Assembly: GCA_031264185.1 (NCBI GenBank)
Contig: JAISEL010000122.1
Coordinates: 1 to 48,458 of the forward strand
Reading direction: 5' to 3'
DNA: 48,458 nucleotides
Source: Deltaproteobacteria bacterium
Lineage (GTDB): Bacteria > Desulfobacterota > Desulfarculia > Adiutricales > Adiutricaceae
Part shown: positions 7,373 through 10,034 of the stretch, in pieces
Position numbering within the stretch: the first letter of the stretch is position 1
How the letters are laid out: the number at the start of each line of letters is the position of its first letter
Position numbers and translations under genes: made by a program
Notes under the pieces: model-generated
What the model was told of the DNA's origin: nothing
Seen by the model: the letters and a program-made list of their open reading frames with translations, nothing else
The model's database searches: none

Positions 7373-9136
7373 ATGGGCCGATTGAGACCGGTAATAAAAA
7401 CTATTGAAGAAAAGTGCGTCAACTGCCACCGCTGTGTGGCGGCTTGTCCGGTTAAGTTCGCCAACGATGCCACCAACGGCAAAATTGTCCGAGTGGTTGA
7501 CAATCTGTGCATCGGTTGCGGTCACTGTATCTACGCTTGTCAGCACGGAGCCAGGGTAGGTTTGGACGATTTCCAAAGCTTTATGCGTGATATCGGCAAC
7601 GGCGCTAAAATGGTGGCCATTGTGGCCCCGGCAGTGGCTTCCACTTTTCCGGATCAGTATTTGAACTTTAACGGCTGGCTGAAATCTCTGGGGGTTGAGG
7701 CGGTCTTTGATGTCAGTTTCGGGGCTGAATTGACCATTAAAAGCTACGCCGAGTACATCAAAAAGGAAAAGCCCCATACAGTTCTGGCTCAGCCTTGTCC
7801 GGCCATTGTTACCTACTGCGAGGTTTACAGGCCGGAACTGCTAGGCTACCTGGCTCCCTGCGACAGTCCCATGCTCCATTCCATGAAGATGATCAAGCGC
7901 TTCTTCCCGGAATACAAAAACTATAAGATAGCCGTCATGTCGCCCTGCTATGCCAAAGGCAGGGAGTTCGACGAAACGGGGTTCGGCGACTACAACGTCA
8001 CCTTCAACAGTCTGGCCGACTATGTAAGCCGCCAGAATATTCGCCTGGATTCTTATCCGGAAGTCCATTATGAAGGGCCTCTGGCCGAGCGGGCTGTTTT
8101 GTTTCCCACGCCGGGCGGTCTGATGAAGACCCTGGAGAGGTACACCCCCGAGGCCACCAATTTTACCCGAAAAATTGAAGGCCCTGAAGTTGTCTACAAT
8201 TATCTGGAATCTTTGCTTCAGTCCATCCAGCTGGGGGTGGCGCCGCTTCTGATAGACGCCTTAAACTGTGAATCCGGTTGCTCCGGCGGTACGGCCGTGC
8301 CCGGTCTCCACGAAAAAACTTTCGATCAGTTGGAGTACAAAGTCAAAGAACGGGCGTACATGCTGCGGCAGCACTATAACGCCGGGTTTAAAAAGAGAAA
8401 GACGTTTTTTAAAAAGATTAACCCGGTGGCCGAACTCAATAAACTGGTGGCCGGCTACTGGCTGCCGGGGCTGTATGACCGGACTTATGTCGATCACTCC
8501 GATAACTACAGGGCTGACAAACTGAATGTCATGGAGAGAAACGAGATCATTAAGCAACTTGGAAAAACCGGAGAAGACGACTTCTTCAACTGCTCCGGCT
8601 GCGGTTACAATTCCTGCGAAAAGATGATCATGGGCATCCATTTAAAGGTCAATACCCCGGACAACTGCCAGCATTACCTTTTAAAGCGTCTGTCCAGAGG
8701 CCGGGAAAATATGGACAAAATTTTGGATATCTCGGTTATGACCCATAAGTCCATTGTGGAGGCCGAGGATACTATTACCAAGATGTCCGAGGCCATGGCT
8801 GAAATTGACGGCCTGACAACTCAGATAGTATCTGTTTTAAAGTCCATTGAAGACATCTCTTTTCAGACCAATATTCTGGCTTTAAACGCTGCGGTCGAAG
8901 CGGCCAGGGCCGGGGAGTACGGCTCAGGTTTTGCTGTGGTGGCCGATGAAGTCAGGAATCTGGCCGTCAAAAGCGCTAACTCCGTTTCCGATACCCGGAA
9001 AATGATCGATGTCACTCTCCAGAACGTCAAAAACGGAGTCAATAACTCCAAGGAAGTTCAGTCTAAATTCAGTCAGATAGAGAACAACTCCTCCAGTATT
9101 TTAGATTTGGCCAAAGCTGTCCACGATGATGTTTAA
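7373..9136 (+). CDS. Soluble H2-sensing [FeFe]-hydrogenase-like protein fused to a chemoreceptor signalling domain
   Basis: A 587-residue fusion. Two 4Fe-4S ferredoxin motifs come first (Cys15/18/21/25 and Cys46/49/52/56). A hydrogenase large-subunit domain follows, with H-cluster cysteines 142 (QPCP), 192 (MSPC), 299 and 303 (CESGC). An extra Fe-S domain has Cys407/410/415/432, and a chemoreceptor signalling hairpin spans about 485-545 ([26 protein letters not shown]). The proton-relay Cys that precedes the first H-cluster Cys in catalytic enzymes is Pro141, as expected for a sensory rather than a turnover enzyme. There are no membrane segments, so it should be cytosolic and signal to CheA/CheW. 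No maturation genes are present in the window. An AGG-type Shine-Dalgarno supports the ATG. Confidence 0.87.
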
Positions 9137-9142
9137 AACCGG

Positions 9143-9224
9143 TTTTCCGCAGGTTGCTGTCTGATTTTCTGATTTTTTTGCGACGGGTAAATTTTACCGT
9201 TTTTGCTCTGGGACCTGCGGAAAA
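9143..9224. terminator. Bidirectional terminator between the H2 sensor and Rpn remnant
   Basis: A 12-base perfect inverted repeat (TTTTCCGCAGGT at 9143-9154 and ACCTGCGGAAAA at 9213-9224) encloses an inner stem CGGGTAAATTTTACCG followed by TTTTT. It lies directly after the sensor gene and would serve convergent transcription. The duplicated copy near 9711-9737 keeps the inner stem and T run but has lost part of the left outer arm. Confidence 0.65.
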
Positions 9225-9249
9225 TCTGGTAAAACTCTGTGTGAAGGTT

Positions 9250-9457
9250 TCACTGCCGCTGCAATTCCTCTGTCTCCGCTCGGGTCAGACCGCTTAACTC
9301 TTCAATCAGTTCAGCCGGCAGGTTTTTGGCAATAGCTGTTTTTGCCGACTTATCATGTTTTCTGTCCGGCCTTCTTCCTTGGCGTCATTCAGTCTGGTAT
9401 TTCCGCGCAAAGTACACATATGCCAGTTGAAATATTATTGGCGAACATCCGGGTCAG
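9250..9457 (-). pseudogene. 3' fragment of an Rpn-family gene left by tandem duplication
   Basis: On the minus strand this piece matches the last 65-70 codons of the intact Rpn gene at 9777-10763. It has in-frame lesions and a single EEGR unit where the intact gene has five. It breaks off at the duplication junction (about 9457), so it has no start and cannot be functional. Confidence 0.8.
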
Positions 9458-9460
9458 CGG

Positions 9461-10034
9461 CCAGAGCCGGGGAGTGCGGCTCTGGCTTGCCGTGGCGGCT
9501 GATGAAGTCATGAATCTGGGCCGCCAAAAGCGCCAACTCCGTTTCCGGTACCAGGAAAATGATCGATGCCACTCTCCAGAGCGTCAAAAACGGAGTCAAT
9601 AATTCCAAGGAAGTTCAGTCTAATAAATTCAGCCAGACAGAGAACGACTCCTCCAGTATTTTAGATTTGGCTAAATCAGGTCGCTGTATGATTTTCTGAT
9701 TTTTTTTGCGGACGGGTAAATTTTACCGTTTTTTCTGGGACCTGCGGAAAATCTGATAAAACTCTGTGTGAAGGTTTCACTGCCGCTGCAGTTCCTCTAT
9801 CTCCGCCCGGGTCAGACCGCTTAACTCTTCAATCAGTTCAACCGGCAGGTTTTTGGCAATAGCTGTTTTTGCCACCTTTAACATGTTTTCTGTCCGGCCC
9901 TCTTCGCGGCCCTCTTCGCGGCCTTCTTCGCGGCCCTCTTCGCGGCCCTCTTCCTTGGCGTCATTCAGTCTGGTATTTTCGCGCAAAGTACACATATACC
10001 AGTCGAAATATTCCTGGCGAACATCCGGGTCAGC
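9461..10034. repeat. Tandem duplication, copy 2
   Basis: Diverged copy of 8904-9457. Bases 9461-9680 repeat the chemoreceptor 3' part of the H2 sensor with substitutions and indels that destroy the frame. Bases 9690-10034 are the 3' part of the intact Rpn gene. The short match GCGGCCAG at the junction suggests duplication at microhomology. Confidence 0.85.

Follow-up and report, generated by a model that had tools for sequence, protein, structure and literature searches.

The window analysed here (positions 1-48,458, the whole 48,458-nucleotide stretch) is from contig JAISEL010000122.1 of a termite-gut Deltaproteobacteria bacterium of the Adiutricaceae (GCA_031264185.1). It contains a gene whose predicted product joins an [FeFe]-hydrogenase H-domain to the signalling hairpin of a methyl-accepting chemotaxis protein (MCP) in one chain (Table 1). 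Its neighbours encode a helicase, an NlpC/P60 protein, a PD-(D/E)XK transposase-family protein, an ABC transporter and others, none of which has a functional link to it. No hyd or che operon was found around the gene in the window, where it is a stand-alone unit, and this counts against the interpretation we favour below. A degenerate tandem copy also lies in the window, and in genomes G012, G019, G020, G024, G027, G030 and G033 two full sensor genes were found side by side.

Table 1. Features of the fusion gene and its surroundings, in window coordinates.
Feature	Position	Strand	Basis
H-domain/MCP fusion gene, 587 aa, ATG start	7373..9136	+	ORF call; orthologues
Two ferredoxin-type [4Fe-4S] sites, residues 10-60	7400..7552	+	Pfam Fer4/Fer4_10
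[FeFe]-hydrogenase H-domain, residues 79-306	7607..8290	+	Pfam Fe_hyd_lg_C, E 4e-29; alignment; fold
Pro141 and ligand Cys142 in QPCP motif	7793..7798	+	72/72 clade rows
Cx2Cx4Cx16C Fe-S module, C407, C410, C415, C432	8591..8668	+	invariant in alignment
MCP-type helical hairpin, helices 433-512 and 514-586, without methylation helices	8669..9130	+	AlphaFold2; alignment with the genome's own MCPs
Conserved CheA/CheW-binding tip, 30 residues	8852..8941	+	Pfam; conservation in relatives
Degenerate tandem copy of 8899-9424 (broken MCP 3' fragment and downstream DNA)	9456..10000	.	repeat search

The original prediction placed ferredoxin clusters, an H-domain, a four-cysteine Fe-S module and an MCP tip in a single soluble chain, and the Pfam scan and alignments agree with it, coordinates included. 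The ferredoxin-site cysteines (C15, C18, C21, C25 and C46, C49, C52, C56) are invariant in 19/19 alignment rows, and the MCPsignal family matches residues 457-575 (E 1e-30). The match of residues 406-433 to the FeS family PF04060 is below threshold in this protein and above it in most of the relatives scanned. The highest 19-residue mean hydropathy is 1.33, indicating that the 587-aa protein has no transmembrane segment, as had been expected. In the same family, 26 of 36 sampled genomes have a full-length or near full-length orthologue, which rules out contamination or a chimeric ORF, and the full-length orthologues at 53-77% identity likewise rule out chance or a chimera as the origin of the fusion.

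An AlphaFold2 model built with 39 family sequences had a mean pLDDT of 87.7. Residues 1-377 superpose on CbA5H (Z 39), CpI (Z 35) and DdH (Z 32), the fold comparison bearing mainly on these residues and not on the hairpin. The hydrogenase fold, the four H-cluster cysteines and the L1-L3 motif frame place the protein in the H-domain superfamily. In the model the first helix of the hairpin is unbroken and begins at the residue following C432, the last of the four cysteines in the C-terminal Fe-S motif; a turn and the second helix come next, and no HAMP, PAS or linker separates the Fe-S cluster from the hairpin.

Pocket residues were compared in a 114-row alignment, with CpI letters taken from the PDB alignment; the QPCP clade, to which the protein belongs, makes up 72 of these rows (78 listed minus six group A/B/C rows, counted by hand). 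All four H-cluster ligands (C142, C192, C299 and C303) are invariant. The position of the proton-relay cysteine, CpI C299, is occupied by Pro141, so that both statements made earlier about the active site were correct. The equivalents of CpI K358, A230, P231, C300, C355, C499 and C503 are unchanged in 72/72 clade rows, a pattern that favours a bound diiron site. Every clade row also has Pro at C299, Leu at M497 and Leu at V423 (CpI numbering), and the M353 position is Ser in 68 of the 72 (three Gly, one Thr). In the protein from the window, S190 and L297 replace M353 and M497, the Ser/Leu pair also seen in group D, and the group A proton-path positions C299, E279 and S319 are all altered (P141 and A161 among them). 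TamHydS has A137, S191, L291 and the proton-relay residue E252 (PMC11803613, PMC10407848); its residue 252, which we place in the CpI V423 column on the strength of a Glu there in 3/3 D-type rows, is Leu250 in our protein and Leu in all 72 clade rows. TmHydS has Gly at M353 and Ser at M497 (PMC8163306). The pocket, combining P141, S190 and L297 with L250, fits neither of these characterised sensory types, and the fusion links a modified, probably slow hydrogenase domain to the signalling part of a chemoreceptor.

Classification against the [FeFe]-hydrogenase groups, proposed at the outset as a check, was done with an IQ-TREE phylogeny (LG+C20) of 67 H-domains, in which group labels were assigned from residues, size and domain layout and which covered sequences other than the TmHydS and TamHydS references. 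The QPCP clade, which includes one long GAF-type row (L033), was split 100/100 from groups A, B, PAS-type C and D, so the protein falls outside the catalytic hydrogenases. Membership in group A or B is ruled out by P141, A161 and tree position; in group D (M2e), by Leu250 in place of Glu and the separate clade, despite S190 and L297; and in PAS-type group C (M2f), by residues, the tree and the lack of any PAS match in the Pfam scan of the protein. The two further H-domain proteins of the genome fall in group A. The genome's bifurcating-type HydA (L001; G000 contig C158) carries TSCSPGW, with Ser at the CpI C300 ligand position, as does A. woodii HydA1 (7q4v).

Beyond the family, none of 23 genomes from the same order or class has an orthologue, save a relative at 32% identity in one (G046), and relatives at 40-50% identity occur in Spirochaetes and Bacteroidetes. 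The QPCP clade as a whole ranges over termite-gut Deltaproteobacteria, Spirochaetes, Bacteroidetes, Ignavibacteriota and the phylum of a Lachnospiraceae genome.

The output hairpin has the CheA/CheW-binding tip in a coiled coil that characterises MCPs, and its alignment with the tip region of four other MCPs of the genome has no internal gaps. The genome encodes six MCP-type proteins, counting the fusion; the MCPsignal match of the fusion stops early, covering profile positions 7-122 of 172 in one scan and ending at position 124 of PF00015 in the comparison of all six, and those of the other five reach 172. The hairpin ends 72 residues past the apex, the MH1 and MH2 regions of the genome's own MCPs are absent, and the Fe-S module stands in place of MH1. 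With a hairpin that ends before the methylation helices, "methyl-accepting" is probably the wrong name for this protein. The short form is shared by same-family orthologues; outside the family, treponemes have a longer hairpin and Melioribacteraceae a complete one (PF00015 positions 6-172). That the hairpin of the fusion is shorter than in the other MCPs of the genome counts against the interpretation we favour, since it makes the sharing of an array with them uncertain.

Among relatives the output is exchangeable. Treponeme MAG relatives carry MCP outputs, and SpoIIE replaces the MCP part in two others (L070, L073). A QPCP-clade H-domain in G210 (L134:106-2808) is followed by PAS, a sigma-54 activator and a Fis-type HTH, and is possibly a direct H2-responsive transcription activator. 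In G074, a 1125-aa H-domain protein with HATPase and CheX domains (L204:4990-8364) lies among CheW, CheR and CheB-like genes, an architecture in which the H-cluster domain is built straight into a chemotaxis-kinase-like protein; a related H-domain is found in the genome of Gracilibacter sp. BRH_c7a (L115). A group C-type H-domain protein of Labilibacter marinus (L170:3885-6918), with a sub-threshold PAS, precedes a SpoIIE phosphatase in a HydA/HydB locus, an arrangement that fits the "phosphatase-linked" group C3 of HydDB.

HydE, HydF and HydG, as well as CheA and CheW, had been named as genes to look for elsewhere in the genome, and all are present, together with CheR, CheB and FliG. Seven proteins have a CheW domain, at least four of them CheA-sized, which leaves more than one candidate partner for the fusion and also weighs against the favoured interpretation, and there is a CheA-CheW-CheR-CheB cluster, in which CheB was assigned from its position and the start of its sequence only. 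In related genomes the sensor gene follows HydB-HydA (L171; order HydB-HydA-sensor in the same-family genome G015), is found together with HydA in L039, precedes HydG-HydE in L061, and lies in the order HydG-HydF-group C-sensor-HydB-HydA in L200 and L201. A spirochaete operon (L048:482-9974) runs CheW-CheB-CheR-CheA(receiver)-receiver/guanylate cyclase, with the H-domain MCP gene last, and in L173 a cheW belongs to the gene run of the sensor, with a HATPase and a D-type hydrogenase gene downstream of the cheW. Over all 59 relatives, HydG and the sensor co-occur (p=6e-6), a value confounded by kinship; within the family, HydG was found in 21/26 genomes with the sensor and 7/10 without (p=0.66, not significant), and it was undetected in five sensor-bearing MAGs. 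Co-occurrence was therefore not used as proof of maturation.

We consider it probable that the gene encodes a soluble cytoplasmic chemoreceptor in which an H-cluster, responding to H2 or to H2-coupled redox state, provides the input to CheA. The direct H2-to-chemotaxis sensor of the original prediction remains the best reading because chemotaxis genes are present and the tree sets the protein apart from catalytic hydrogenases; H2 as the stimulus, like diiron occupancy, the CheA partner, the direction of the response and the lack of adaptation, is what we infer in addition. HydEFG would install the [2Fe] subsite in the H-domain, and H2, or electron exchange between the N-terminal clusters and ferredoxin, would switch the H-cluster between its oxidised and reduced states. 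Since no protons would pass via Pro141, turnover would be slow and the reduced state would persist as the signal. A structural change would then run through the H-domain and Fe-S module into the first hairpin helix and alter CheA activity at the tip. TamHydS, which also lacks the relay cysteine, turns over slowly with a stabilised Hred state, and its secondary structure changes in response to H2 (PMC8163306, PMC13104023); signal transfer along the helix to CheA is proposed by analogy with this last property. The C-terminal cluster of TamHydS is not reduced by H2 (PMC13104023), making a purely electronic signal through such a cluster doubtful. Lacking methylation helices, the receptor may report the current H2 or redox level with no adaptation of its own, as an energy-taxis input beside five conventional MCPs. 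A more specific version can be offered only tentatively: an H2-taxis receptor with a proline-fixed relay and a long-lived reduced state, in which the helix attached to a [4Fe-4S] ligand drives CheA directly, without methylation-based adaptation, and which in some lineages would belong to a dedicated H2 chemosensory pathway that includes the HATPase-CheX fusion.

The same architecture could instead serve as a general redox receptor, similar to Aer, in which Fe-S chain and H-cluster come to equilibrium with the ferredoxin pool and report reductant load rather than H2. The invariance of the two N-terminal ferredoxin clusters is consistent with this, as are the presence of bifurcating-type HydA-HydB, which also use ferredoxin, among the operon partners and the precedent that Aer operates via a redox cofactor (PMC9668731), but a plain Fe-S sensor would need neither a full diiron pocket nor the adjoining maturation genes (L061, L200), and we regard this alternative as unlikely. 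Less likely still is an output other than chemotaxis, with the tip engaging a CheA-type pathway whose targets are gene expression, pili or second messengers instead of flagella. Several CheA-like proteins are encoded in the genome, MCP is swapped for SpoIIE, PAS-sigma54 or HATPase-CheX in relatives, a receiver-guanylate cyclase lies in the spirochaete che operon and the hairpin lacks methylation helices, all of which would suit such a pathway; strong conservation of the tip and the presence of FliG argue against it. It is very improbable that the protein is a remnant like Nar1/NARF, binding only the [4Fe-4S] part of the H-cluster, with no diiron site and no contact with H2: Pro141, other changed second-sphere residues and the sensor-bearing MAGs in which HydG was undetected point that way, but the equivalents of Lys358, Pro231 and Ala230 are invariant and maturation genes adjoin the sensor in L061 and L200/L201. 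That the protein is a catalytic hydrogenase carrying a tethered signalling tail, a reading for which the fold and ligands would speak, is hardly credible given the loss of the C299, E279 and S319 equivalents, the 100/100 separation from groups A and B, and the separate group A enzymes of the genome.

The chemoreceptor interpretation has precedents. Contrary to the original prediction, the MCP fusion is not the part that stands out, as HydDB already defined in 2016 a group C2, "Chemotactic (putative)", acting via methyl-accepting chemotaxis proteins (PMC5037454), a designation repeated later (PMC9431212). The protein resembles C2 as a sensory-type [FeFe] protein tied to an MCP, here in one chain, its identity with C2 being inferred from the group's description and the function of C2 being putative as well; the HydDB text consulted makes no mention of a short methylation-free hairpin or a QPCP signature (PMC5037454). 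The protein is thus best regarded as an addition to a predicted chemotactic kind of [FeFe] protein, a fusion type that had already been predicted.

Among termite-gut bacteria, hydrogen sensors of treponemes were reportedly the subject of a 2012 paper by Ballor et al., to go by its title as cited in PMC12483993, which would make them H-domain sensors from the same habitat. TamHydS (group D, M2e) shares the two N-terminal clusters, the Cx2Cx4Cx16C module, the loss of the relay Cys and the M353 to Ser and M497 to Leu changes, but it has Ala137 where our protein has Pro141, Glu252 (the group D proton relay) where ours has Leu250, and no output domain, and D-type rows form a separate clade. TmHydS and other PAS-type group C proteins (M2f) share the Fe-S layout and a fused sensory output, but with PAS in place of MCP, Gly instead of Ser at 353 (12/12 rows), and a separate clade. 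In Aer of E. coli, too, a redox cofactor domain drives a CheA-control hairpin, but Aer has FAD-PAS, a membrane anchor and HAMP, and the sensor parts are not homologous.

Termite guts, like other anoxic systems, have hydrogen as a central currency, and to our knowledge there is little direct physiological evidence for putative H2-sensing [FeFe] proteins. The literature searched, mostly outside subscription papers, yielded no account of an H-cluster receptor that mediates H2 taxis, nor did we find there a description of the features that appear to be new here, namely the host group, the QPCP pocket, the short hairpin and the operon links. By differing from both the TmHydS and TamHydS types, the conserved QPCP pocket offers H-cluster chemistry a new active-site variant. 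The cell most likely steers by hydrogen or redox state via the fusion protein, and a one-chain receptor from H-cluster to CheA, if true, would provide a simple readout, in CheA phosphorylation and swimming, of H2 signalling by the H-cluster.
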